Shown here: positions 1 to 10,958 of the stretch, piece by piece
Numbering within the stretch: position 1 is the stretch's first letter
Layout of the letters: each line of letters opens with the position of its first letter
From: Anaerolineales bacterium
GTDB taxonomy: Bacteria; Chloroflexota; Anaerolineae; Promineifilales; Promineifilaceae
DNA length: 10,958 nucleotides
NCBI GenBank assembly: GCA_020432595.1
Contig: JAGQGA010000116.1
Coordinates: 1 to 10,958 of the forward strand
Direction: 5' to 3'
Translations under genes and position numbers: made by a program
Notes under the pieces: generated by a model
What the model saw: only the letters and a program-made list of their open reading frames with translations
What the model was told of the DNA's origin: nothing
Databases searched by the model: none

Positions 1-1004
1 AGATTCAGGAGTCGTTTGAATTGGAGGATGGGGAGGATTTGCTGCTGGCGTTGCAGACAAACGGCCGTAAATTGGAAGACACCCGCGCCAACCTTGACAA
101 CATTCTTGTCAGCCCCCAGGAAGGGATGATTTACTGGTTTGAGGTGTTTAAAGAGCGAATTTCGCTCCACGCCGCGCCGCTGCATGTGGGGCCGCTGGTA
201 GAAAAACATATTTTCGCGGCCAAAGAAACGGTCATTCTGACTTCGGCTACTATGCGGACATCGGGTGCGGGGGCGGCCAGTGAAGCCAACTTTGCCTATA
301 TTCGGGACAGGCTGCATGCGCATGAGGCGGTAGAAACGGCCGTTGGTTCCCCTTTCGACTACAAAAACGCTACCTTGCTCTACTTGGTCAGCGACATGCC
401 CGAACCCAACCAGCCTGGCTATCAGCGGTTTGTCGAAAGCGGCATTGTAGATGTGGCGCAGGCGCTGGGTGGCCGCACGATGGTGCTGTTTACCTCGTAC
501 AGCCAGCTTGCTGAAACAACACGCAACATCGAGGCACCGCTGGCGGACGCAGGGATCACGGTGCTGGCGCAAACGCAGGGGGCATCACGGCAACAGTTAC
601 TGGATCAATTTAAGCAGGATGGGGCACGGGCAGTGCTGCTTGGCACCAGGTCGTTTTGGGAGGGGGTGGATGTGCCAGGCGAGGCACTGCAAGCGGTAAT
701 TATTGCCAAGCTGCCGTTTGATGTGCCGTCTGACCCGATTTTTGCGGCGCGGTCGGAGACGTTCGAAAATTCGTTTTTTGAATATTCGATCCCGGAGGCG
801 GTGCTGCGCTTTCGCCAGGGGTTCGGCCGGCTGAACCGGCGTTCGACGGATGAGGGGATTGTGGTGGTGCTGGATAAGCGGGTGTTGACGAAGCGATACG
901 GCCGTTTGTTTGTCGAGGCTCTGCCCGAATGCACCGTCATCCGTCAGCGTCACGCTCGCCTCGGCGAACTCACCCTGCGCTGGCTCAACCGCGAACGCGA
1001 ATAG
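1..1004 (+). CDS. dinG: DinG/XPD-family ATP-dependent DNA helicase, C-terminal part (5' end outside window)
   Basis: The reading frame is open from base 3 with no stop upstream, so this is the C-terminal part of a longer protein and the TTG at 21 need not be the start. What is visible is the second helicase half (Helicase_C_2 type) of the superfamily 2 DinG/YoaA/XPD group. A TSAT motif III lies at 240-251. The motif V-like segment SFWEGVDVPG lies at 651-680, followed by an AKLPFDVPSDP segment typical of bacterial DinG. Motif VI QGFGRLNR lies at 816-839. Family members unwind 5'-tailed DNA, R-loops and damaged forks using ATP, and most carry an iron-sulfur cluster. The Walker A, Fe-S and any N-terminal exonuclease region would lie upstream and cannot be judged. 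The gene ends in TAG at 1002-1004 with no obvious terminator before fabF. Family assignment is secure; orthology to E. coli DinG rather than YoaA is not. Confidence 0.9.
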   Translation, partial: IQESFELEDGEDLLLALQTNGRKLEDTRANLDNILVSPQEGMIYWFEVFKERISLHAAPLHVGPLVEKHIFAAKETVILTSATMRTSGAGAASEANFAYIRDRLHAHEAVETAVGSPFDYKNATLLYLVSDMPEPNQPGYQRFVESGIVDVAQALGGRTMVLFTSYSQLAETTRNIEAPLADAGITVLAQTQGASRQQLLDQFKQDGARAVLLGTRSFWEGVDVPGEALQAVIIAKLPFDVPSDPIFAARSETFENSFFEYSIPEAVLRFRQGFGRLNRRSTDEGIVVVLDKRVLTKRYGRLFVEALPECTVIRQRHARLGELTLRWLNRERE

Positions 1005-1106
1005 GTGACGGCAGGGTACCACACCGCATCTTTGGCTGTACAAACGGGTTATATCCCCTGAGCTTGCCTTTGATCAGTAAGTTAAATCACTTGAGTAGGA
1101 TTACGT

Positions 1107-2357
1107 ATGAATCAACATAAAAGACGTGTGGTGATTACAGGGTTGGGAACATATAACCCTTTAGGGAATGATGCCACCACCACTTGGAATAATATTCTTG
1201 GCTGCAAAAGTGGCATTGCCAAAATCACCCGCTTTGATGTCAGCGACTATAAAACACAGTTTGCCGGTGAGGTCAACGATTTTGACCCTGACGAGCACTT
1301 TGGGCGGCGCGAAGCCCGCAAAATGTCGCGGGTAACGCAGTTTGCCGCCGCAACGGCTGAACAAGCCATGGCTGATGCCCGTCTTGATTTAGACAAAGTG
1401 AATCGGGATCGGGTGGGTGTGGTAATCGGCACCGGTATGGGCAGTTTGGAACCCATTATTGATAATGTCAATGCCATGAACGAGCGTGGCCCCTATCGCG
1501 TTAGCCCTTTTTTTGTGCCGATGATGCTGACTGATACGCCAGCGGCAACCATTTCCATTAGCTATGGGCTGCGTGGTCCCAACATGGCTGTGTCAACAGC
1601 GTGCGCCACCGGCAACAATGTAGTGGGTGAAGCGGCCAAAATCATTGAGCGTGGCGCGGCCGACGTGATGATTGCGGGTGGTTCAGAGGCATGTATCGTA
1701 CCGTTGGTGCTGGCTGGCTTTAGCGTAATGAAGGCGATGTCTACCCGCAACGACGACCCAGCCGGTGCCTCGCGGCCATTTGATGCTGACCGCGACGGTT
1801 TTGTCACCAGTGAAGGTGCTGCGGTCCTAATCATGGAAGAATTGGATCATGCACTGGCACGAGGTGCCCACATTTATGGCGAATTCCTGGGCTATGGTAC
1901 CAGTGCCGATGCCTACCATTTGGCAATGCCGGCCGAAAATGGTGAAGGCGCAGCACGGGCGATTGCGGCAGCCATTGATGACGCAGGTCTTGCCGCAACT
2001 GACATTGATTATGTCAACGCTCACGGTACTAGCACGCCGCTCAATGACAAAGGGGAAACGGCCGCTATTAAAACCGTTTTGGGTGAACATGCCTATAACA
2101 CGCCGGTCAGCTCGACAAAGTCAATGCACGGGCATTTGCTGGGCGCGGTGGGGGTTTTGGAAGCATTGATCTGCCTGAAAAGCATTGGAGATGGCATCAT
2201 CCCGGCTACCATCAATTATGAAACTCCCGACCCGTTGTGTGATCTTGATTATGTGCCGAATGCACCACGGCCGGCCGATTTGAATGTGGTGTTGTCCAAT
2301 GGGTTTGGGCTGGGCGGGCATAATGCCACCATCATTTTGGGGAAATATCGTGGTTAG
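1107..2357 (+). CDS. fabF: Beta-ketoacyl-ACP synthase II (KAS II)
   Basis: A 416-residue condensing enzyme of type II fatty acid synthesis: it extends acyl-ACP by decarboxylative condensation with malonyl-ACP in the cytosol. The Cys-His-His triad is complete: C166 in STACATG, H306 in NAHGTSTPLND and H341 in STKSMHGHLLGA, close to the E. coli FabF positions 163, 303 and 340. The N-terminal RRVVITGLGTYNPLGN and the C-terminal SNGFGLGGHNA segments are also typical of the family, and the length is normal. ATG at 1107 is chosen because the conserved N-terminus begins right after it; a weak purine stretch (GAGTAGGA) lies just upstream. No acpP, fabG or fabD is adjacent, so the gene appears to stand alone and ends at the hairpin terminator at 2368-2394. 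It has no perfect ACGGCCGT palindrome, only a one-off variant at 2058-2065, unlike most genes here. FabB is less likely from the overall match. Confidence 0.96.
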   Translation: MNQHKRRVVITGLGTYNPLGNDATTTWNNILGCKSGIAKITRFDVSDYKTQFAGEVNDFDPDEHFGRREARKMSRVTQFAAATAEQAMADARLDLDKVNRDRVGVVIGTGMGSLEPIIDNVNAMNERGPYRVSPFFVPMMLTDTPAATISISYGLRGPNMAVSTACATGNNVVGEAAKIIERGAADVMIAGGSEACIVPLVLAGFSVMKAMSTRNDDPAGASRPFDADRDGFVTSEGAAVLIMEELDHALARGAHIYGEFLGYGTSADAYHLAMPAENGEGAARAIAAAIDDAGLAATDIDYVNAHGTSTPLNDKGETAAIKTVLGEHAYNTPVSSTKSMHGHLLGAVGVLEALICLKSIGDGIIPATINYETPDPLCDLDYVPNAPRPADLNVVLSNGFGLGGHNATIILGKYRG

Positions 2358-2367
2358 GTGAGAAAAC

Positions 2368-2394
2368 AAAAGGCCAGCAAAGTGCTGGCCTTTT
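2368..2394. terminator. Rho-independent, bidirectional terminator between convergent genes
   Basis: An 8-bp GC-rich perfect stem, GGCCAGCA (2372-2379) with TGCTGGCC (2383-2390), closes a 3-nt loop. It is flanked by AAAA before and TTTT after, so the stem can extend to 12 bp and there is a T tract on both strands. It lies 10 nt after the fabF stop and about 40 nt beyond the stop of the convergent gene, so it probably ends transcription from both sides. Confidence 0.92.
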
Positions 2395-2431
2395 CTCTTA
2401 ATTAGATGACTATAAGCAATAGCCGTAGTTA

Positions 2432-3250
2432 TTAGTTACCAGCGGCGACTGCAGCGTTGTTCATAACGGCCGTTGATCTGGTTAGCAGTTCTCCGTTCAC
2501 CCACACTTCCAGCGAATAATCCCCAGAGGCAAAGCCCTCTTCAGGGGCAAAGAAAATATAACCAGGGCCTTCTTGGCCGTAATTCCAAATTTCGTTGCCT
2601 CCATCTACCACTTCGCCATTGTGCCGCCATACCCATGCCCATTCCATGCCGTTTGCCATTGCTTTATAGGCAAAAGTAGCATAGAGGGTAAAAGAGCCTT
2701 CGGGGAAAAGACGGGTTGGGCTAACAGCTTCGTAATTGTCGGAAATTTTGGTGGAGAATTGGATGGTTCCCAGTTCGGTATCATTATTCAGATTAGCAGT
2801 TGGCTCAAACTTGTCGAACTGGGCGGGAAGGGAAACAACATCGGCAAAAAGGGAGTTTTCGGCTGTAGCAGATATGTTCACAACGGGGTTGGCAGAAACG
2901 GCCGTTTCTGCAACTGCCGCCCGCTCAACTTTCTCTACCAAAGCGATCACCTCAGCCCGCACCGGTTTGGTATTGGATAACAACGCCATTCGAGGTGCAT
3001 CGTCAGTTGGTGCTCGCCAAGCATAAGCAGCCACACCAAAAGCGGCAGCAAATAAGACAACACTAAGCGTCAAATAAGACTGCAACCGTTTTTCGGCCTG
3101 GCGGCGTAAGAAAAAGTATGGCGATTTTTTGACATCCCGCCATGATTTCAGCGAAACCAGTAAGGCGAGAAAGGCCAAGGCTAGAAAGACACCCATTAGC
3201 CAGGGCACTATGGTTCCATTTAACTCTGACAAATTCAACCCTCTTCCCAC
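2432..3250 (-). CDS. Two-TM membrane protein with extracytoplasmic domain, function unknown
   Basis: I do not recognise a named family. The 272-residue product has a hydrophobic segment at about residues 14-34, a basic cytoplasmic loop (about 36-58, rich in K and R), and a second hydrophobic segment at about 59-80. A low-complexity Ala/Val/Glu stretch follows (about 95-125), then a C-terminal domain of about 140 residues. That domain is rich in aromatic and Gly residues (MEWAWVWRHNGEVVDGG, EGPGYIFFAPEEGFASGDYSLEVWVNG) and looks like a beta-sandwich placed outside the membrane. The longest start is GTG at 3248-3250. A purine stretch GGAAGAGGG just inside it makes TTG at 3230-3232 (codon 7) a plausible alternative, with a 6-nt spacing. 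The gene is transcribed away from ccmA and convergent with fabF, with its own promoter upstream. It carries two ACGGCCGT palindromes, one enlarged to a perfect 20-bp palindrome. Confidence 0.75.
   Translation of the reverse strand: MGRGLNLSELNGTIVPWLMGVFLALAFLALLVSLKSWRDVKKSPYFFLRRQAEKRLQSYLTLSVVLFAAAFGVAAYAWRAPTDDAPRMALLSNTKPVRAEVIALVEKVERAAVAETAVSANPVVNISATAENSLFADVVSLPAQFDKFEPTANLNNDTELGTIQFSTKISDNYEAVSPTRLFPEGSFTLYATFAYKAMANGMEWAWVWRHNGEVVDGGNEIWNYGQEGPGYIFFAPEEGFASGDYSLEVWVNGELLTRSTAVMNNAAVAAGN
2892..2911. repeat. Perfect 20-bp palindrome GCAGAAACGGCCGTTTCTGC
   Basis: The longest uninterrupted palindrome I found in the window. It is centred between 2901 and 2902 and lies inside the coding sequence of the unknown membrane protein. 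It contains the iterated core AACGGCCGTT extended by 5 bp on each side. On the minus strand it encodes A-E-T-A-V-S-A. One arm plus core (AACGGCCGTTTCTGCC, 16 bp) recurs at 4318-4333 and 4846-4861 in ccmB. Confidence 0.9.
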
Positions 3251-3566
3251 GATCTTGATAGCATAAAATGCCTAAAATAGACCATTAGGATTACCAAACT
3301 ACGAGACATTATAAAGAAACTGTGGCAATTGAGCAAGTAGGCGAGTCTTTTTACGCAATTTTTAGGGTAAATTGACATCGAATTGTCGCTAAACTGCCTC
3401 TTTTTCGGTTGATACGGCGCATCATGCCATGAAGGAGGGTGATGCTCCGTAAACGCATCGTGAAAACGGCCGTTTGTCAGTACCATAGTGTCATCAAATC
3501 AAAACTATCTTAAGACTTTTCTGAACATTTTTTTATTCACAGAAATATCTTACAATTGAGTTTAGG
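3251..3566. other. Divergent intergenic region (316 nt)
   Basis: This region separates the minus-strand membrane protein gene from the plus-strand ccm operon and should hold both promoters. The minus-strand promoter is clear (3308-3336). For the ccm operon I find only weak candidates: TACAAT (3551-3556) or TATCTT (3546-3551) without a well-spaced -35. TTGACA at 3372-3377 has no -10 at 16-18 nt. One full AACGGCCGTT palindrome lies at 3465-3474 in the middle. A minus-strand open frame of 83 codons crosses the region, but it overlaps the promoter and shows no family features. No RNA gene or riboswitch is recognised. Confidence 0.6.
3308..3336 (-). promoter_or_regulatory. Sigma70-like promoter for the unknown membrane protein gene
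   Basis: Read on the minus strand, TTGCTC (3331-3336) is followed after exactly 17 nt by a consensus TATAAT (3308-3313). Transcription would begin near 3301 and give a leader of about 50 nt before the GTG at 3250. It is a sequence match only. Confidence 0.55.
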
Positions 3567-4271
3567 ATGATCAAGATAGAGAATCTGCGTAAACAGTATG
3601 GATTGCAGCCTGTTCTTCAGGGCGTAAATCTCCACATATTAGCTGGGGAGTTTGTGATGTTAGTCGGCGCAAACGGTGCTGGTAAAAGCACGTTGATGCA
3701 AATTGTGGCGGCTCTGCAAGCACCAACGGCTGGTCAGGTGACGGTAGGTGGCTGGGCATTGCCTCAATATGCCGACCGCGTACGGAGGCACATTGGCTAT
3801 GTTTCGCATGAACCGCTGCTATATGCGGACTTAACAGCCGCCGAAAATCTTGAGTTTTTTAGCCAGATTTACGAGTTGGGGTTGACGAAGGAGCAAATTG
3901 GGGAGCGTTTGCGGCGTGTAGGGCTGTTGGCGCGGCAGCGAGAGGCGGTACGGCTTTTTTCGCGGGGGATGAAACAGCGACTAGCCATTGCCCGCGCCAC
4001 GCTCCATGAACCAGATATTTTGCTACTTGATGAGCCATATACAGGGCTTGACCAGCAGGCGGCGGAATTATTGGATCATTTATTGCAACAGGAAGTAACG
4101 GCCGGGCGCACGATTTTTATGATTACTCATGATTTAGTTCATGGGTATCATCTTTGTAATCGGGTCGCTATTTTGAATCGTGGTAAAATAGTTTGTGAAA
4201 TTGAGAGCAACCAGACAACGGCAACGGATTTCTTGCAAATTTACCGGGAACAGACAGGAACGGGCAGATGA
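3567..4271 (+). CDS. ccmA: Heme exporter ABC ATPase CcmA
   Basis: The 234-residue ATPase subunit of the CcmABCD complex of cytochrome c maturation System I; it powers release of heme-loaded CcmE on the outer side of the membrane. The Walker A GANGAGKST is at residues 34-42 (K40), the ABC signature FSRGMKQRLAIAR starts near 131, the Walker B ILLLDEP has D155/E156, and the switch histidine is H188 (ITHD). The Q-loop position carries histidine (YVSHEPLLY, H81), as I recall for CcmA proteins and unlike most ABC ATPases. ATG at 3567 follows GAG at 3558-3560 at a suitable distance, and the conserved N-terminus starts at once. It is the first gene of the operon, and its end overlaps ccmB by 4 bases (ATGA). 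Alone it could be a generic ABC ATPase; the neighbours make CcmA firm. Confidence 0.93.
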   Translation: MIKIENLRKQYGLQPVLQGVNLHILAGEFVMLVGANGAGKSTLMQIVAALQAPTAGQVTVGGWALPQYADRVRRHIGYVSHEPLLYADLTAAENLEFFSQIYELGLTKEQIGERLRRVGLLARQREAVRLFSRGMKQRLAIARATLHEPDILLLDEPYTGLDQQAAELLDHLLQQEVTAGRTIFMITHDLVHGYHLCNRVAILNRGKIVCEIESNQTTATDFLQIYREQTGTGR

Positions 4272-4984
4272 GTAAGGCAGGACAACAGGAGAGGGTGAAG
4301 GGGCAAACGGGGTTTATAACGGCCGTTTCTGCCATCATCCAAAAAGATTTACGCATCGAGCGCCACACGCGGCAAACGATCAGCATCATGGTCATGTTTT
4401 CCCTCGTTACCGTCGTCATGTTCAATTTCGCCCTTGAAACCAACCTGGCTGCTGTGCGCGATGTTGCTACCGGGCTACTATGGGCAATCATTTTGCTGGC
4501 AGGCACGCTGGGGCTAACACGCTCGCTTGCCATCGAACGGGAAAACCGCGCCTTTGATGCGCTGCTGCTAGCTCCCGTCAACCGCAGTGCCATTTACGTT
4601 GGTAAGGTCGTCAGCATTAGCATATTTACCCTGTTGCTGGAAGCAATCCTAGTACTGCTCTTTATTGCGTTCTTCAACAAGCCATTTTGGCGTGCCCCGG
4701 TATTGCTGGTGCTAATTTTAGGCACTATCGGATATGTTGGCATTGGCGTGCTTATCACGTCTATGACGGTGCAAACCCGTTCGCGTGATGTGCTCCTGCC
4801 GGTGCTGCTGCTACCGCTATCGCTGCCGCTGGTGCTGCCGGCCGCAACGGCCGTTTCTGCCTACATGTTCCCGCAAACACCCCCTTGGGCCGAGGTGCAA
4901 AGCCCTGTTCTCCTCGTTGCCACTTACGATCTTATCATGTTGTCTATTGGCTTTTTTGCCTATCGTTACGTCATCGAAAATTAA
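4268..4984 (+). CDS. ccmB: Heme exporter membrane protein CcmB
   Basis: A 238-residue integral membrane partner of CcmA and CcmC. The first 25-30 residues are cytoplasmic, followed by KDLRIERHTRQTISIMVMFSLVTVVMFNFAL, which matches the CcmB N-terminal signature (charged KDLRIE-type segment, then the first membrane helix). About six hydrophobic segments follow. E. coli CcmB is about 220 residues; the extra length is in the N-terminus. The start ATG overlaps the ccmA stop, which implies translational coupling. Two copies of the 16-bp motif AACGGCCGTTTCTGCC lie in this gene (4318-4333, 4846-4861), both read as T-A-V-S-A. The second sits in a helix near the C-terminus and the first in the variable N-terminal tail. 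Confidence 0.9.
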   Translation: MSKAGQQERVKGQTGFITAVSAIIQKDLRIERHTRQTISIMVMFSLVTVVMFNFALETNLAAVRDVATGLLWAIILLAGTLGLTRSLAIERENRAFDALLLAPVNRSAIYVGKVVSISIFTLLLEAILVLLFIAFFNKPFWRAPVLLVLILGTIGYVGIGVLITSMTVQTRSRDVLLPVLLLPLSLPLVLPAATAVSAYMFPQTPPWAEVQSPVLLVATYDLIMLSIGFFAYRYVIEN

Positions 4985-4995
4985 AGAGGTTTTGT

Positions 4996-5745
4996 ATGAC
5001 ATTAGCACGCCTAAACCGTACCATTTCCATTTTAAACGTGGCCGCCCTAGTTGCTTTGCTTATCGCCCTGGCCGCCATCTTCTTTTACGCTCCCGTAGAG
5101 CGCACTATGGGCAATGTGCAGCGTATTTTTTACTTTCACGTTGGCACTGCCTGGGTAGCAGCCGTGGCCTTCTTTGTAGCGTTGATTGTAGCTGTTCTTT
5201 ATCTGCGCCAACCGCAAACCAAATGGGACACCATTGGTTTAGCCTCTATTGAGATTGGGGTAGTTTTTCTCACCATGGCAACCATAGCCGGGTCAGTTTG
5301 GGGCAGACCCGCCTGGAACACCTGGTGGCTTTGGACTCCGCGCCTAACTACTGTAACGGTTGCTTGGCTCACCTATGTTGCCTACTTCATGCTGCGCGGC
5401 GCGATTGATGATGGGCAGCGCCGCGCCCGTTTTGCTGCCATCTACGCCATCGTGGCCTTTGCCACCATCATCATGGCCTACTTTAGCATTCGCGTTTTGC
5501 GGGATATTCACCCGGTTGTCTTTGGTGGCTCAGCCGAGGGAGTACAGACAGGAGCCGAGGGTCTGCAAGAATTTTCAGGTGTTGACTCGCTGAAAATGGT
5601 CGTGACGCTCAATATAAATGTCTTGGCCTTTACCGTTATTTACGCTGCCTGGCTGGCAAACCGCTATCGGCTGCAACTGCTGCTCGATCAGGCTAACCAG
5701 CTCAAGATGCGCGTGACGGCACGGCTACAAAGTGAAGGACGTTAA
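4996..5745 (+). CDS. ccmC: Cytochrome c maturation heme-handling protein CcmC
   Basis: A 249-residue six-TM protein of the heme-handling (HHP) family; CcmC delivers heme to CcmE on the outer face of the membrane. The expected external histidines are present: H48 in IFYFHVGTAW and H172 in DIHPVVFGG. The tryptophan-rich WWD segment runs from about residue 101 to 120 (VWGRPAWNTWWLWTPRLTT). Its usual aspartate after the last Trp is threonine here (T114, ACT at 5335-5337). The frame is open further upstream into ccmB, but ATG at 4996 has an excellent AAAGAGG at 4983-4989 with 6-nt spacing and gives the normal CcmC length. CcsA of System II shares the WWD domain but is longer, and the ccmAB neighbours support CcmC. 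Confidence 0.92.
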   Translation: MTLARLNRTISILNVAALVALLIALAAIFFYAPVERTMGNVQRIFYFHVGTAWVAAVAFFVALIVAVLYLRQPQTKWDTIGLASIEIGVVFLTMATIAGSVWGRPAWNTWWLWTPRLTTVTVAWLTYVAYFMLRGAIDDGQRRARFAAIYAIVAFATIIMAYFSIRVLRDIHPVVFGGSAEGVQTGAEGLQEFSGVDSLKMVVTLNINVLAFTVIYAAWLANRYRLQLLLDQANQLKMRVTARLQSEGR

Positions 5746-5747
5746 CC

Positions 5748-5969
5748 ATGACTTTGTTTCTTCTGACAGCTTACGCGCTTAGTTTGATGCAGCCGGGCAT
5801 TGGCGATCCCAATCACTTCAATAACTATCTGGTGCTTGGCTATGGGCTGATGTGGCTTGTTGGCATGGGTTATTTACTTAACCTGGCTAGTCGGCAGCGC
5901 AACATTAAGCAAGATATTGAATTGATGAAACAAATCTTGCAGGAGGATGAGGAACCGAAAAAGAAGTAG
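5748..5969 (+). CDS. ccmD: CcmD-like small single-TM protein
   Basis: A 73-residue protein with a short hydrophobic N-terminus, one clear membrane helix at about residues 27-47 (NYLVLGYGLMWLVGMGYLLNL) and a charged, probably helical C-terminal tail (RQRNIKQDIELMKQILQEDEE, then KKK). CcmD proteins are about 50-70 residues with one helix and a charged tail; they hold CcmC and CcmE in the heme-release complex. Sequence conservation in CcmD is low, so the call rests on size, topology and position right after ccmC. The start is 2 nt after the ccmC stop, and AAGGAC at 5736-5741 inside the end of ccmC can serve as ribosome binding site. Confidence 0.68.
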   Translation: MTLFLLTAYALSLMQPGIGDPNHFNNYLVLGYGLMWLVGMGYLLNLASRQRNIKQDIELMKQILQEDEEPKKK

Positions 5970-6074
5970 CTGTTGTCATGGTTCGCTCATTTTTCACCGC
6001 ATGTTGCTCATTCATGTAAGAAACGGCCGTAAATCGTTGTCCAAACCATAGCCTAACTTGCGGAGAAATCCTCT

Positions 6075-7178
6075 ATGTCTGACCTCAAACTACCCAAGCC
6101 ACTGCAAACCTTATCCAGCACCCAAATGGTGCTGGTTGGTCTTGGTATTGTGCTCCTTGCCTTTCTTATTTTAGGCAGCCTTGGCCAAGCCAACGCCGAT
6201 CCCAACGGATTTGCCTTTGGCATACAAACGCAGCCATTTATCGTTTTAGCCGTCCTATCCTTCCTAGCTGGGATACTTAGTTTTGTTTCCCCCTGTACCC
6301 TTCCCGTCCTGACTGCCTATTTTGCCTTTGCCTTTCAGAGTGACCGCAGCAAAATTGCCAGCAACACCCTGGCGTTTATGATCGGGCTGGCAACCACGTT
6401 TAGCTTGTTTGGCGCAGCCGGTTTCTTTTTAGGTCGCTATCTTCTACAAAACCAACAGGTCATTTTACTGGTAGGTGGAGCCGTGATTATTTTGTTTGGC
6501 GTGCTGAGCCTGTTTGGTGGCGGCTTTGGTGGCACCGCCAAATTTAGCGACCAAACGCGCAGCACCGACATGCGCGGCTCGTTTCTCTTTGGCCTCACCT
6601 TTGCCGTAGGCTGGTCAAGCTGTGTCGGGCCGATTTTAGGGTCGGTACTGACGCTGGCGGCGCAAACGTCTTCAGTGTGGCGGGGCATGATGCTGCTGTT
6701 TATTTACACGCTGGGGCTAGGGCTGCCGCTGCTGCTTGTTTCTACCTTTTTTGGCCGCATGAGCCGCAAGAGCTTATTCTGGCGCGTTTTGCGGGGCAAA
6801 GGGTGGGCGTGGCATACCCACATGCTGGTTGTCGCCACCGTATGGGCACTGGCTATTTGGCGTATTCTGGTGGCCGTCGCCGAATATACCTTTCGCCGGT
6901 TTGCTGTTTTTCACGGGCAAACGTTTGGCACGGGGCATGAAATCGGGCTGTTGGTGCTGGTGTTGGCAGGGGCAGCACTTTGGGTTTATACCAGCCCGCA
7001 GGAACGCCGCATTACGGTGCAGCTTCATTCAACGCAATTGATTAGCGGAGCGTTGTTTGTTGTCATTGGGCTGTTGATGTTGAATGGTCAGTTGGCAGCT
7101 TTTAATAACCTAATTCCGCCGCAGCTTGCGGAGTGGTTAGCAATTCAGGAAGAATGGCTCATCGGGCTGTTTAGTTGA
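6075..7178 (+). CDS. ccdA: CcdA-type thiol-disulfide transmembrane protein (DsbD membrane-domain family)
   Basis: A 367-residue polytopic protein that would pass electrons from cytoplasmic thioredoxin to extracytoplasmic thiol carriers. The two redox cysteines are in the expected helices: C74 in FVSPCTLPVL and C183 in VGWSSCVGPILG, with the flanking prolines of the family. The core (about residues 50-265) resembles six-TM CcdA. It is longer than typical CcdA (about 230-250 residues), with an extra N-terminal hydrophobic segment (about 18-37) and two more C-terminal hydrophobic segments (about 285-300 and 318-340). ATG at 6075 is supported by GGAG at 6062-6065. A 105-nt gap with one AACGGCCGTA palindrome separates it from the ccmD-like gene, so a second promoter is possible though none is clear. 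It works in context with the CPPC thioredoxin directly downstream. Confidence 0.88.
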   Translation: MSDLKLPKPLQTLSSTQMVLVGLGIVLLAFLILGSLGQANADPNGFAFGIQTQPFIVLAVLSFLAGILSFVSPCTLPVLTAYFAFAFQSDRSKIASNTLAFMIGLATTFSLFGAAGFFLGRYLLQNQQVILLVGGAVIILFGVLSLFGGGFGGTAKFSDQTRSTDMRGSFLFGLTFAVGWSSCVGPILGSVLTLAAQTSSVWRGMMLLFIYTLGLGLPLLLVSTFFGRMSRKSLFWRVLRGKGWAWHTHMLVVATVWALAIWRILVAVAEYTFRRFAVFHGQTFGTGHEIGLLVLVLAGAALWVYTSPQERRITVQLHSTQLISGALFVVIGLLMLNGQLAAFNNLIPPQLAEWLAIQEEWLIGLFS

Positions 7179-7179
7179 T

Positions 7180-7800
7180 ATGAAGAAAACATTTGCAGGG
7201 AAAAACGGCCGTTTTTCTCACCCCATTCTCTTTGTTGCCGGTCTCATCTTGCTCGGCGTGGCCGGAGCCATACTGTTATTTGGGGGCACGCTTTTTAGCA
7301 AGCCGCAGGACGTGGCGTTTGAACAGATACCAGAGTTGGGCGGAGAAACGGCCGTTGTGCAGCTTCCAACCGGCGGTGGTCTGTTGGCCGTGGGCGATGT
7401 TGCGCCGGCTTTTACCCTGAACGACCTTGACGGGAACAGTGTCAATCTCAGCGATTATGCTGGCCGGCCGGTTGTTCTTAACTTTTGGGCGACCTGGTGC
7501 CCGCCTTGCCGCGTCGAAATGCCAGAACTGCAAAAAGCTTTTGAGACGCATCAAAGCGACAAGCTGGCAATTCTGGCAATTGATCAGGCCGAGACCAGTA
7601 CCGAGGTTGCCCCATTTTTTGCTGAACTGGGTCTTACTTTTACCCCGCTGCTGGACAGTGAAGGAATTGTGGGTCAGTTCTATGGGGCTTCCAACCTTCC
7701 CACTTCGGTTTTTATTAGTCCTGAAGGCCAAATAACGGCCGTTCACCGTGGTGCTCTAACGGCCGAGCAGGTGGACGGGTATCTTGAAAATAATCAATAA
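7180..7800 (+). CDS. Membrane-anchored TlpA/ResA-like thioredoxin
   Basis: A 206-residue thiol-disulfide oxidoreductase: N-terminal basic residues, one membrane anchor at about residues 16-38, a linker, then a redoxin domain from about residue 67. The active site WCPPC is in NFWATWCPPCRVEMPEL (C107, C110), and a cis-proline lies in SNLPTSVFI. ResA, CcmG and TlpA proteins of this type reduce apocytochrome c cysteines before heme attachment, receiving electrons from CcdA. The ATG is 1 nt after the ccdA stop with no clear Shine-Dalgarno, so translation is probably coupled. Three full AACGGCCGTT palindromes occur in this short gene, at 7204, 7347 and 7734. The last bases including the TAA stop form part of the hairpin stem of the repeat element at 7798-7853. 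ResA versus CcmG cannot be decided by eye. Confidence 0.9.
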   Translation: MKKTFAGKNGRFSHPILFVAGLILLGVAGAILLFGGTLFSKPQDVAFEQIPELGGETAVVQLPTGGGLLAVGDVAPAFTLNDLDGNSVNLSDYAGRPVVLNFWATWCPPCRVEMPELQKAFETHQSDKLAILAIDQAETSTEVAPFFAELGLTFTPLLDSEGIVGQFYGASNLPTSVFISPEGQITAVHRGALTAEQVDGYLENNQ

Positions 7801-7853
7801 TCGGTAATCAGTAAGGTACCCACTGATTACCGATTACCGATTACCGATTACCG
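7798..7853. repeat. Heptad inverted-repeat element (unit GATTACC)
   Basis: A perfect 15-bp stem pairs TAATCGGTAATCAGT (7798-7812) with ACTGATTACCGATTA (7822-7836) across a 9-nt loop containing GGTACC. The right arm is four perfect tandem copies of GATTACC (7825-7852) followed by G. The element begins with the TAA stop of the thioredoxin gene and ends with the G of the GTG start of the next gene, so it fills the whole intercistronic space. There is no T tract, so it is not a standard terminator. Confidence 0.92.
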
Positions 7854-8650
7854 TGACAATTCCCCCTAAACAACCTATCACCGGCTGGCAGCGTACTGCG
7901 GTCATTTGGCTGCAAAAGCTCACCTATCGCTTTGCCCGCCATTGGCTATTGGCGTTCAATCTTTTTTTTCTTACCTACGCAGGGTTGCCAGTTTTAGCGC
8001 CTGTGCTCATGCACGTCGGGTTTACCGCACCTGCTCGCTTTATCTACACTGCCTACAGTCCCATGTGCCACCAAATGGCATCACGCTCCTATTTTCTGTT
8101 TGGGGAGCAAATTGCTTACCCTCGCGCTCTGGCTGGCACCAACCTACTCCCCATTGAAAGCTATATGAGCAGCATTCCTGAGTTTAGCGCCGCATCAACC
8201 GACCCGGCCGACTGGGGGCAATTTTTGTTTGCCGCCCGTCAATTTATTGGCAACCCGCAGATGGGGTATAAAACGGCCGTTTGTGAGCGCGACCTCGCCA
8301 TCTATGGTTTTGTATTTATTGGTGGGCTGGTTTATGGGGTCGTGCGACAGCGGCGCAAGGTAGGACCTTTACCACTGCTGGCATTTATTCTCATTGGCAT
8401 GGGGCCAATTGGCCTCGATGGGTTCAGCCAACTGTTTAGTCAATTTGCCTCCACCCCTGTTTTTTCCTCGCTGCAAGCGATCTTCCCCCTGCGTGAATCC
8501 ACCCCGTTTTTGCGTACCTTCACCGGTGCCATTTTTGGCTTTATGTTGGTTTGGCTCACCTTCCCCCACATTAACGAAGGTCTAAAAGAAACCGAGGAAC
8601 GACTGGCCGCCAAACTACGGCGTATTGGGGAACTGCCTGAAGAATTGTGA
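7853..8650 (+). CDS. DUF2085 family polytopic membrane protein
   Basis: A 265-residue membrane protein matching the DUF2085 pattern: SPMCHQMASRSYFLFGEQ (C72, H73) after the first hydrophobic segment, AVCERDLAIYGF (C144) at the start of the next helix, then GMGPIGLDGFSQL and RESTPFLRTFTGAIFG. There are about four hydrophobic segments. The molecular function is unknown. The position after ccdA and the thioredoxin gene, with conserved Cys and His, makes a redox, metal or heme role conceivable, but this is inference. The start is uncertain: GTG at 7853 is the only usual start codon before the first membrane segment. It directly abuts the GATTACC tandem repeat and has no Shine-Dalgarno. The gene ends the seven-gene unit. 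Confidence 0.82.
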   Translation: MTIPPKQPITGWQRTAVIWLQKLTYRFARHWLLAFNLFFLTYAGLPVLAPVLMHVGFTAPARFIYTAYSPMCHQMASRSYFLFGEQIAYPRALAGTNLLPIESYMSSIPEFSAASTDPADWGQFLFAARQFIGNPQMGYKTAVCERDLAIYGFVFIGGLVYGVVRQRRKVGPLPLLAFILIGMGPIGLDGFSQLFSQFASTPVFSSLQAIFPLRESTPFLRTFTGAIFGFMLVWLTFPHINEGLKETEERLAAKLRRIGELPEEL

Positions 8651-8698
8651 GCGCGGCTGATGGGTTTAGACAAATAGGGGCATAAAATGACTTTTTTG

Positions 8699-8759
8699 GG
8701 AGATTGGAGATTGGAAATTATGCAGATTTACAATCTCCAATCTCCAGTCTCCAATCTCC
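8699..8759. repeat. Heptad inverted-repeat element (unit GGAGATT), possible terminator
   Basis: The left arm has GGAGATT at 8699-8705 and 8706-8712 plus a degenerate third unit (GGAAATT). The right arm has AATCTCC at 8732, 8739 and 8753 plus AGTCTCC at 8746. A perfect 15-bp stem forms between 8699-8713 and 8731-8745 with a 17-nt loop; other registers of the right arm can also pair. T tracts flank it (TTTTTT at 8692-8697, TTTT at 8760-8763), and it lies between convergent genes, so it may act as a terminator in both directions. Confidence 0.88.
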
Positions 8760-8793
8760 TTTTACAGAATGCCCCCGTTCAGGATGGTACCTT

Positions 8794-9936
8794 CTAACCG
8801 CGCAGTATCCGCTGCAACGCCGCCAGCAGCGTCATGACATTTTCGGGGCGGCTGTTGAAGCCCATTAGCCCCACGCGCCACACTTGACCAGCTAGTTTGC
8901 CAAACCCCCCGGCAATTTCAATGTTGTATTCGTTAAGCAGCCGACGAGCCACGGCGGCCGCATCTACGCCATCGGGCACACGCACCGTGGTCAGACTGGG
9001 GATGCGGTGGGCGGGGTTGGCGACGTGGCATTCCAGCCCCATCTCGGCCAATCCATCCCAGAAAAGCTGGGCATTTTGCTGATGGCGCTGCCAGCGGGCT
9101 TCCAGCCCTTCCTCAGCAATCAGCAGCAGCCCTTCGCGCAGGGCGTAATTCATGTTGCTCGACATGGTGTGGTGATAGGCTCGCCGTTCGCCCCCCCAGT
9201 AGGGCTGCAGCAGCGTCAGGTCATAATACCAGTTGGGCAATTTGCCCGGCCGTTCCTGGCGCAGTGCCATAGCACGGGGACCAAAGGTAAGTGGCGATGC
9301 GCCGGGGGGGCAACCTAGCCCTTTTTGTGAGCAACTGTAGGCAACATCAATCCCCCATTCTTCCACCAGCAGCGGCGCGGCACCGAGGCTGGTGACGCAG
9401 TCGGTAAGCAGCAGACAGTCGAATTGGCGGCACAGTTCACCTACCCCTTCCAAGGGCTGCAGCGCCCCGGTGGAGGTTTCAGCGTGGACAAGCATGAGGA
9501 CAGTTGGCTGGTGCTTTTGCAGACCGGCGCGAATGTCGTCGAGCGTAAACACGTCGCCCCACGCTTTTTCCATCACGCGCACATCGGCACCATAGCGGCC
9601 GGCCATTTCTACCAGCCGTTCGCCAAAATACCCCATGACGCCAATGAGGACGCGAGCACCGGGGATGACGGTGTTGGCAACTGCCGTTTCCATGGCCGCA
9701 CTCCCTGTCCCACTAATCGAAATAGTCAGTTCATGCTCCGACTGCCACGTGTAGCGCAGCAGCTCCTGAATTTCGTTCATAATCGCCACAAACGCTGGGT
9801 CGAGGTGGCTCAATTGCGGCATGGAAAGCGCCCGCAGCACGCGGGGATGGGCATCGGATGGGCCTGGGCCAAGCAGCAGGCGCGGTGGAATGTTAAGGGG
9901 AGTCGTGGAAACACGATGGGTGTTATTTATGGGCAT
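8794..9936 (-). CDS. Class V PLP aminotransferase (alanine-glyoxylate / serine-pyruvate type)
   Basis: A 380-residue PLP enzyme of the AGXT-like group, which uses alanine or serine as amino donor to glyoxylate or pyruvate. Seen: N-terminal LLLGPGPSDAHPRVL, the cofactor-binding SGTGSAAMETA loop, a ring-nitrogen aspartate in LLLTDCVTSLG (D179), the Schiff-base lysine in YSCSQKGLGCPPG (K205), a central YHHTMSSNMNYALREGL and the substrate-carboxylate arginine region VWRVGLMG. Positions agree with human AGT (D183, K209). The frame stays open to a TTG at 9973-9975, but that lies in the heptad repeat; ATG at 9934-9936 has AAAGGAAAG just upstream and gives the normal family length. Phosphoserine aminotransferase and other class V members fit less well. 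Substrate cannot be settled by eye. It is convergent with the ccm operon and downstream of the kinase gene on the same strand. Confidence 0.92.
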   Translation of the reverse strand: MPINNTHRVSTTPLNIPPRLLLGPGPSDAHPRVLRALSMPQLSHLDPAFVAIMNEIQELLRYTWQSEHELTISISGTGSAAMETAVANTVIPGARVLIGVMGYFGERLVEMAGRYGADVRVMEKAWGDVFTLDDIRAGLQKHQPTVLMLVHAETSTGALQPLEGVGELCRQFDCLLLTDCVTSLGAAPLLVEEWGIDVAYSCSQKGLGCPPGASPLTFGPRAMALRQERPGKLPNWYYDLTLLQPYWGGERRAYHHTMSSNMNYALREGLLLIAEEGLEARWQRHQQNAQLFWDGLAEMGLECHVANPAHRIPSLTTVRVPDGVDAAAVARRLLNEYNIEIAGGFGKLAGQVWRVGLMGFNSRPENVMTLLAALQRILRG

Positions 9937-9957
9937 CTTTCTTTCCTTTGGAAGGTG

Positions 9958-10031
9958 ACAAGTAACAAGTTGCAAGTTGTTTTAGCAGCCATTACCTGCT
10001 ACCTGACGCTTGTTACTTGCTACTCTGCTAC
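9958..10031. repeat. Heptad inverted-repeat element (unit near ACAAGTT / TTGYTAC)
   Basis: The left arm runs in 7-nt steps: ACAAGTA (9958), ACAAGTT (9965), GCAAGTT (9972). The right arm runs CTGCTAC (9997), CTGACGC (10004), TTGTTAC (10011), TTGCTAC (10018), TCTGCTA (10025). An 11-bp perfect stem pairs CAAGTAACAAG (9959-9969) with CTTGTTACTTG (10009-10019) across 39 nt. It fills most of the 91-nt gap between the kinase and aminotransferase genes, and the kinase stop codon (10028-10030) lies in the last unit. No strong T tract follows it on the minus strand. Confidence 0.8.
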
Positions 10032-10958
10032 AACAAAAATGAGGCAACGGCCGTTAATATCACCAGCAGCAGCGTCATTAGCACCAGCATCACCAGCAAC
10101 CAAGTGGGAGCGTAGGGAGTGACAAGGAGCGTGCCGTTCAATGCCTGCCGCTGGCCGGGACCGGTGACTTCAATTTCAAAGGGATGGGCTTGGGGTTTGC
10201 CCAGCAACGGCCGTTCGGGAGGGGTGAGATGAAAAACGGCCGTTGCTGTCTGCCCCGCCCCAATCTTAAGCTGTTTGCGCCACTCATCAAACAGCACCAC
10301 CTCGCTGGGCGTGCGCGGAATCAGCCGCAGCGACACCGGGTACTGCCCCTGGTTTTGCACCGCCACCGTACACGCCCCGCCGTTGCGAAGGGTGGGGCTG
10401 CCCAGCCGGGCAGAAAAGGCTACGGTAGGGTGTGGGGGATGGGGTGTGGTGTGTGGGGCTGCTGGCGGTTTTTCCGGGGGTGGGGCTGGGCGCGAATGGA
10501 TCATGGTAGGCAATTCATTGGCACTTGGAGCCGCTGGAGAACTGGGCGGGGTGGGATAGCGGGTATGGACTTCGGTAACAATGCTGACAATATCGCTGTT
10601 GGCGGCCGGCAACGCCACCCCGCTTGCCAGACTGTGGCTGGCCTGGCGTAAGGCTGCCGCCAGTTCATCACCCGTTTGGTAACGATTGGCCGGCTTTTTT
10701 GCAAGTGCCTTCATGATGATGTTTTCTACCACCAGAGGGAAATCAGCGTGGAGATTGTGGGGTTCCGGCGGCTGTTCATTCAGGTGTTTGATCACCGCGT
10801 CGGTAGGCGATTTGATGTCAAACGGCAGTTTGCCGGTGGCAAGCTGGTAAAGGACGACACCCAGGGCGTAGAGATCAGAACGGCCGTCTAGCGAATCCCC
10901 CGTTACCTGCTCTGGCGACATATAGGGTAAGGTTCCCAGCATAATGTCAGCCTGGGTG
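10028..10958 (-). CDS. Ser/Thr protein kinase with C-terminal membrane anchor, 3' part (5' end outside window)
   Basis: The frame is open to the right edge, so the N-lobe and catalytic DFG/HRD motifs are missing from view. Visible first is the end of the activation segment and C-lobe of a Hanks-type kinase: GTLPYMSPEQ (the APE-equivalent SPE), then DGRSDLYALGVVLYQLATGKLPF with the F-helix aspartate, and the closing arginine segment KKPANRYQTGDELAAAL. A linker of about 60 residues rich in Pro, Ala and Ser follows. Next is a beta-rich domain of about 100 residues with features of CARDB/NEW3-like folds (GGACTVAVQNQGQYPVSLRLIPRTP). A single membrane helix ends the protein (about the last 30 residues), with almost nothing beyond it. 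Such kinases are membrane-tethered signalling proteins; the target is unknown. Four ACGGCCGT palindromes lie in the visible part. The methionine at 10940-10942 is inside the activation segment and is not the start. Confidence 0.9.
   Translation of the reverse strand, partial: TQADIMLGTLPYMSPEQVTGDSLDGRSDLYALGVVLYQLATGKLPFDIKSPTDAVIKHLNEQPPEPHNLHADFPLVVENIIMKALAKKPANRYQTGDELAAALRQASHSLASGVALPAANSDIVSIVTEVHTRYPTPPSSPAAPSANELPTMIHSRPAPPPEKPPAAPHTTPHPPHPTVAFSARLGSPTLRNGGACTVAVQNQGQYPVSLRLIPRTPSEVVLFDEWRKQLKIGAGQTATAVFHLTPPERPLLGKPQAHPFEIEVTGPGQRQALNGTLLVTPYAPTWLLVMLVLMTLLLVILTAVASFLL

Follow-up and report, generated by a model that had tools for sequence, protein, structure and literature searches.

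A highly iterated palindrome with a CGGCCG core and lineage-specific dialects in one order of Anaerolineae

The word in the 10,958-bp window

The contig JAGQGA010000116.1 of an Anaerolineales bacterium, analysed over its whole length of 10,958 bp and referred to below as the window, carries 17 exact copies of the octamer ACGGCCGT between positions 61 and 10887. Only 0.21 copies are expected from dinucleotide shuffling, and none of 200 shuffles reached 17. Thirteen of the octamers are part of the 10-mer AACGGCCGTT, for which 0.01 copies are expected. This recount confirmed the numbers of an earlier, sequence-only reading of the window, which had proposed a highly iterated palindrome (HIP) similar to the cyanobacterial HIP1 and different in sequence; the HIP1 word itself, GCGATCGC, has no copy in the window. 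The mean start-to-start distance of the octamers was 676 bp (about 650 bp had been claimed). As also described before, they are found in genes of unrelated function, annotated by Pfam as helicase C-terminal domain, CcmB, thioredoxin-fold, DUF2085 and others, with 15 copies in open reading frames (ORFs), in all three frames (10, 4 and 1 in frames 0, 1 and 2), and two outside them (starting at 3466 and 6023).

The helicase ORF at 21..1004, which contains the Helicase_C_2 domain, holds an octamer with A/A flanks at 61..68, a AACGGCCGTT site at 335..344 and an octamer with T/T flanks at 898..905. Two AACGGCCGTT sites (2465..2474 and 2897..2906) are located in the minus-strand ORF 2432..3250, one (3465..3474) lies outside the ORFs treated as coding, and two (4318..4327 and 4846..4855) are in the CcmB ORF 4268..4984. 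An octamer with A/A flanks at 6023..6030 is positioned between ORFs, ahead of the DsbD_TM ORF 6075..7178. The AhpC-TSA/Redoxin ORF 7180..7800 carries AACGGCCGTT at 7204..7213, 7347..7356 and 7734..7743, and the DUF2085 ORF 7853..8650 carries it at 8272..8281. The remaining copies fall in the minus-strand ORF 10028..10942, whose translation resembles the terminal part of a Ser/Thr kinase: AACGGCCGTT sites at 10046..10055, 10206..10215 and 10235..10244, and an octamer with A/C flanks at 10880..10887.

The word was sharply defined in the window, where all 24 one-base neighbours of ACGGCCGT together had only seven copies. The 15 coding octamers compare with 1.9 predicted from the proteins and codon usage. 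The palindromic AACGGCCGTT was seen 13 times, against 13.4 expected for independent flanks; the flanks thus act as independent half-sites, and a palindrome extending past 8 bp was ruled out. The Markov check that keeps 7-mer frequencies, suggested in the sequence-only reading, was uninformative on the window: such a maximal-order model gave 11.8 "expected" octamers for the 17 seen, a misleading value, since the 7-mers nested in the octamer are for the most part copies of the motif.

Distribution in related genomes

All genome-wide counts were made in relatives of the window, its own source genome not being among them. Of 80 genome contigs retrieved with the FabF-like protein of the window, one from an Anaerolineae metagenome-assembled genome had 39 copies in 21 kb, and the next-densest had two. 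The genome of this contig, G001, contains 14,867 copies of ACGGCCGT in 7.7 Mb and 185 of the reversed word. The Anaerolineae order to which G001 belongs was covered with 56 genomes. In 28 of them ACGGCCGT makes up over 30% of the CGGCCG sites, with 437-2,102 octamers per Mb; 27 of the 28 are in the range of 991-2,102, and G012 has 437. Outside the order, each of 361 genomes had at most 430 copies (class-wide sample of 396 genomes, 35 of them in the order). The tables give no completeness figures, and recovery of MutL (PF01119) in 50 of the 56 genomes served as a rough proxy. A HIP with a CGGCCG core, extended to ACGGCCGT in about half of the genomes, thus characterises a single Anaerolineae order on the scale of whole genomes. 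The 265-amino-acid (aa) DUF2085 protein of the window has relatives in 48 of the 56 genomes (best 65% identity), which places the window within this order-level group or beside it. In the parts of the literature available to us, neither this word nor any Chloroflexota HIP was reported, and the only paper containing ACGGCCGT dealt with DNA encryption codes.

Pooled statistics were obtained from 24 of the 28 ACGGCCGT genomes; G011 and G030 (masked), G012 (weaker signal) and G027 (first contig HIP-free) were excluded. An order-3 model with the CGGCCG sites excised from the background gave 15.6 expected copies, while 1504 were seen (both strands, i.e. 752 sites), and in this form the Markov comparison did reveal a strong excess. 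One site occurred per about 557 bp with near-exponential intervals (coefficient of variation 1.09, 691 intervals), which rules out regular spacing or saturation.

The HIP-free first contig of G027 (16.8 kb) is enriched in other palindromes (GAGCTC, TTCGAA), though the genome has 1,470 ACGGCCGT per Mb. It is probably foreign DNA or a binning error.

Codon usage and imprint on proteins

In the 24 pooled genomes we found 637 coding octamers, whereas the codon usage of each genome, applied to the same proteins, predicts 64.5. Codon and amino-acid usage, therefore, account for only about 10% of the coding copies and fail as a full explanation. The octamer density was 1,621 per Mb in coding DNA and 1,202 per Mb in noncoding DNA. 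The proposal of a HIP1-like signal with a new sequence is thus supported, having survived both tests that the sequence-only reading had named beforehand, namely genome-wide frequency and codon and amino-acid usage.

The DNA word also writes dialect-specific tripeptides into proteins. In genomes with ACGGCCGT (the A dialect, see below) the tripeptide TAV was found 338 times (51.5 expected), in the T dialect SAE was found 27 times (4.6 expected) and in the G dialect AAA was found 38 times (7.7 expected). In a low-HIP set the counts were 25 against 26.7 for TAV and 179 against 83.7 for AAA; the AAA excess of the G dialect is therefore partly general, as AAA is already elevated in that set. The imprint of TAV, SAE/SAD and AAA indicates a DNA-level demand strong enough to alter proteins, which bears on how selection is read in these genomes.

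Maintenance of the octamer

To follow the fate of individual sites, a single 20-kb stretch of G004 was aligned with four relatives of its clade, so that all counts share the same G004 sites, and 8-mers matched for G+C and CpG were taken as the control. Between G004 and G001 (87.5% identity), 28 of 32 octamers were kept, in comparison to 145 of 447 matched 8-mers (Fisher p 7e-10), and one further octamer was present in G001 only. The other relatives behaved similarly, with 12/14 octamers kept in G003, 12/15 in G006 (plus one G006-only octamer) and 11/13 in G005, against 64/199, 64/206 and 96/197 matched 8-mers. Of the 34 G004 octamers with an aligned relative, 27 are retained in every relative aligned at that site. 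The CGGCCG core was kept in 29/32, 12/14, 12/15 and 11/13 cases when it was within an octamer (G001, G003, G006 and G005, respectively), in 4/7, 3/4, 4/4 and 4/4 cases with one matching flank, and in 4/9, 0/3, 1/3 and 0/2 cases with neither. Octamers are kept more often than CGGCCG with neither flank; the octamer is therefore the unit, and in this clade, the only one tested, its positions are under active maintenance. As a correction to the sequence-only reading, the 10-mer is not the unit; its outer A is a lineage habit, set independently on either side.

Divergence was not reduced around the sites: bases 1-3 outside the octamer were below average in conservation in all four pairs. Lost sites differed at two or more positions in 5 of 7 cases, against 115 of 306 changed control windows, numbers too few for a claim. 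In the pooled relatives, the excess of single-base variants in the A dialect was confined to the outermost position (251 seen, 73 expected) and absent from the core (118 seen, 138 expected); the corresponding counts in the T and G dialects are too small.

Dialects around CGGCCG

The dialects other than ACGGCCGT were identified from sampled stretches that covered 3.3-47 kb of each genome (for G007, G026, G044 and G021, 24-47 kb), those of G011, G030 and G040 being masked throughout. In the T dialect the word is TCGGCCGA, with 36 copies in 27.8 kb of G007 and 32 in 27.9 kb of G026, and zero copies of ACGGCCGT in both. In the G dialect, represented by G044, 61 copies of GCGGCCGC were found versus one of ACGGCCGT in 46.9 kb. 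Many other genomes use the hexamer CGGCCG, and the bases outside it show little or no preference: G008 has 5,127 per Mb, and G048-G052 have about 3,000-3,460, with a mild A..T preference in G048 and a total of 25,568 copies in the 7.4 Mb of G052. Little or no outer preference was also seen in G033-G040 (about 2,310-3,950 CGGCCG per Mb); these genomes are GC-rich, and the excess over composition is therefore only about three- to fivefold. The HIP signal is little or none in G014 and G015. A different word, TGCCGGCA, has 3,665 copies in the 4.0 Mb of G021, where CGGCCG has only 447, and 886 copies in the 4.7 Mb of G022.

We also noticed that GCCGGC is nearly missing from the whole genomes of G044 (51 in 8.0 Mb) and G008 (132 in 4.1 Mb), while CGGCCG of identical composition shows the opposite. 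This scarcity looks like restriction avoidance. G021 mirrors these genomes, with scarce CGGCCG and plentiful TGCCGGCA.

The word in phage contigs

Viral loci were picked by closely spaced copies (two- and three-copy patterns in viral contigs), which yielded at least 278 loci; among the matches listed, 25 loci, on no more than 21 contigs, carry five or more copies and over 1,000 ACGGCCGT per Mb. Because these contigs were chosen for dense copies, their densities are not averages and are biased upward. Packaging, portal or tape-measure genes were found in 7 of 13 scanned loci (38 larger proteins; L350, L361, L402, L415, L455, L460 and L469). Two non-overlapping stretches of one 65-kb contig (L350 and L404), each 13-14 kb long, hold 48 and 47 copies. 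A contig in which terminase and portal genes were found carries ACGGCCGT at about 3,500 per Mb. The T dialect was met in one locus, L570, with 11 copies of TCGGCCGA and none of ACGGCCGT adjoining a phage primase-helicase. In proteins of eight dense phage loci, TAV occurred 75 times (11.0 expected).

Comparison with known systems

By form the word is a member of the HIP class, with a new sequence, a new host phylum and a dialect structure: it shows a palindrome excess, a copy number in the class range of about 500-2,500 per Mb (in 27 of the 28 ACGGCCGT genomes) and, in the A dialect, the deviations at the first and last base that belong to that class. As far as the accessible text of Elhai 2015 (PMC4390886) goes, HIP1 and the alternate cyanobacterial HIPs are likewise GC-rich palindromes at roughly 1,000-2,000 per Mb, their single-base deviations cluster at the first and last base, and alternates replace the main word in some lineages. 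The Chloroflexota word differs in sequence and phylum and is known here also from phage contigs. Across the order, its dialects vary a single core in nested fashion, the outer base pair being A, T or G or showing no preference. A cognate methyltransferase is only a candidate here, and the relationship between HIP and methyltransferase "remains a mystery" also in the available portion of that survey. Lineage-specific variants on a shared core, a trait of DNA uptake sequences (DUS) and uptake signal sequences (USS), are present in this word too, and the DUS dialects of Neisseriaceae resemble it, with thousands of copies per genome (PMC3630211, seen in part). According to the same source, the receptor ComP is known for DUS, whereas none is known for the Chloroflexota word, which is a perfect palindrome.

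The purpose of HIP1-type words is unsettled, and the dialects make it testable what reads the Chloroflexota word. The order is a natural experiment with one core, three outer base pairs, a preference-free form, a replacement word and phage contigs in two dialects, such as cyanobacteria offer only sporadically in the accessible part of the survey (PMC4390886). If a protein varied together with the outer base pair from genome to genome in this set, it would be the reader. In practice, HIP density may aid metagenome contig binning and the linking of phages to hosts.

What may maintain the word

That the word is a maintained HIP with dialects we regard as nearly certain. The explanation that we favour as a whole adds to it a reader linked to DNA modification or repair, and we give this combination a probability of roughly 0.42. 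The word would be read in all resident DNA, chromosome or phage, by a single protein of two-fold symmetry that is conserved in the order. This protein would be a genome-maintenance enzyme, acting in DNA modification or in modification- or mismatch-directed repair, as in the proposals for cyanobacterial HIPs. Its action would either favour cells with a site about every 500 bp or convert near-sites to full sites, and when its specificity drifts at the outer base pair the whole genome would follow, so that the preference becomes A..T, T..A or G..C or is lost. We favour a reader linked to modification or repair because the sharp octamer specificity, the deviations restricted to the outer base and the presence in phages are reminiscent of an enzyme acting on any DNA resident in the cell; taken alone, this mechanism is a tentative proposal. 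We consider it somewhat unlikely that the palindrome serves hosts and their phages as a common genome-wide recognition word, that a single reader drifting at one base pair rewrites about ten thousand sites together with the tripeptides, and that lineages and viruses are sorted by dialect. Mismatch repair is available, as MutL is found in 50 of the 56 genomes; as a discriminator, MutL excludes nothing for the same reason.

Several results weigh against this explanation. The A or T flank is not predicted by Elhai's GmC model. An enzyme of the 5-methylcytosine (m5C) family PF00145 was found in only 26 of the 56 genomes, and several of those richest in the word (G001, G029, G031 and G032) lack it, which rules out an obligate m5C methyltransferase. 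G052, with its strong bare-CGGCCG signal, had no match to PF00145, to PF01555 or to the methyltransferase-like protein of about 660 aa described below. More generally, no enzyme could be tied to the word among the families searched, which did not include PF02086, PF02384 and other DNA-methyltransferase families. Two octamer genomes (G041 and G042) and the hexamer genomes G008 and G048-G052 gave no match to the ~660-aa protein itself. At E 1e-60, its family is present in 69 genomes of the class, of which 42 are outside the order; only three candidates were scored per genome in this search, so that absences carry less weight. The 20 best-scoring carriers outside the order (577-1,099 bits) had no HIP in one stretch of 3.4-20 kb each, which excludes the family as a sufficient cause, and the remaining 22 match mostly via a more distant paralogue only. 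The nearest solved folds of the protein are Trm11/Trm14/TrmN, which are tRNA methyltransferases.

Two further candidates were rejected. An obligate PF01555 enzyme in the ordinary arrangement has no strong match in G001, G012, G027 and G041. An m5C clade shared by the hexamer genomes G008, G049 and G050 and by G033 (65-76% identity) has 3lx6 and 3me5 as the best solved relatives of its G049 member; we take both to be Dcm-type CCWGG enzymes.

Alternatively, the word may be an uptake or recombination signal that accumulates by drive, with dialects marking species as in Neisseriaceae. This is unlikely in our judgement, but it accounts for the dialects and the phage carriage nearly as well as a modification- or repair-linked reader. 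Shared-core dialects and a density similar to that of kingDUS speak for it; in the portion of PMC3630211 available, kingDUS has 5918 copies in 2.4 Mb, and single-base variants add 21%. The excess of single-base variants is about 21% of sites here too (369 seen, 211 expected, 752 sites). The occurrence of the word in some phage contigs may be compared with uptake words, which reportedly build up in the prophages of Pasteurellaceae (PMC7371117, seen in part). On the other hand, the noncoding density is below the coding one (1202 against 1621 per Mb), and the word is a perfect palindrome without orientation. To our knowledge, none of the known uptake words is palindromic.

A binding site of an abundant protein that organises the chromosome or protects DNA (a nucleoid or segregation protein, or a symmetric Chi-like nuclease brake) is distinctly unlikely. 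The two-fold symmetry and the near-random spacing of one site per ~557 bp would suit such a protein, as would the high density of about 3,500 per Mb in the tailed-phage contig with terminase and portal genes, phages then bearing the word for protection or packaging; however, the phage densities are biased upward by the choice of contigs. The 8-bp specificity is also sharp, with core variants at background, whereas nucleoid proteins are usually less specific.

It is improbable that the ~660-aa protein itself reads and methylates the HIP. This family, reached by tracing weak PF01555 matches, was what the search for a solitary methyltransferase, advised in the sequence-only reading, brought up: it is present in 29 of 31 octamer genomes and in 14 of 25 others (p 0.0013, uncorrected for descent), and names among its homologues include Candidatus Leptofilum. 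Its gene stands alone, the neighbours (8 ORFs, 7 genomes) being Dus, major facilitator superfamily (MFS), P450 and PucR-type or MoxR-type genes, with no nuclease among those scanned. In G001 all PF01555 matches below E 0.001 lie inside this gene and PF00145 has none; the protein is not the sole candidate there, because a 957-aa ORF matches its catalytic part with 69 bits. Its presence in HIP-less genomes and its tRNA methyltransferase-like folds leave it a weak candidate, and its motif is TDPPY[FY]D wherever the region was seen, without a difference between the A, T and G dialects, even though GCGGCCGC contains no adenine. With NF042963, a DUF1156-type anti-phage methylase model, the ~660-aa proteins scored 76 and 67.5 bits, under the cut-off of 1000, and of three proteins two matched DUF1156 itself, with E values no better than 0.01-0.02.

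Among the functions open to the word, classical restriction and codon usage are very unlikely. CGGCCG, the shared core, and GCGGCCGC, the word of G044, are known restriction sites of the NotI/EagI type; here, however, they are enriched rather than avoided, in hosts as in the chosen phage contigs, and a restriction-modification target is hardly credible. An origin of the word as a side effect of biased codon use, amino-acid use or context-dependent mutation might fit the high-GC members with only three- to fivefold CGGCCG excess and no outer preference, but we give practically no credence to it for an octamer that is tenfold above the codon and protein expectation, occurs also between genes, is maintained as an octamer only and has three outer-base dialects.

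Other observations

In the T-dialect genome G026, the ~660-aa gene was matched in two overlapping frames within a 740-kb contig (C1:577104-579030), which is either a frameshift or an assembly error. Contigs of G012, G014, G017, G018, G023, G024, G027, G030, G040 and G054 often end inside this gene, many of them near model positions 210-305; this might reflect strain variation in the middle region, or merely shared conserved DNA. A second, longer and more distant paralogue was found in G016 (C3:55857-57725) and in 25 genomes outside the order. ORFs of 860-1007 aa that match the catalytic part with 61-91 bits were seen in G001 (C11:142085-142597) and also in G002, G004, G005, G034 and G054, and are perhaps DUF1156-type methylases.

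Dense inverted repeats are located directly past two ORFs of the window, at 7791-7850 and 8699-8759, and are perhaps terminator-region repeats. Short repeats at about 2168-2227, 6691-6892 and 11784-11948 of another locus, L092, recur at numerous places, among the matches listed, in the genomes of G001, G003, G005 and G006, some of them at contig ends, and are probably elements similar to miniature inverted-repeat transposable elements (MITE) or repetitive extragenic palindromes (REP).

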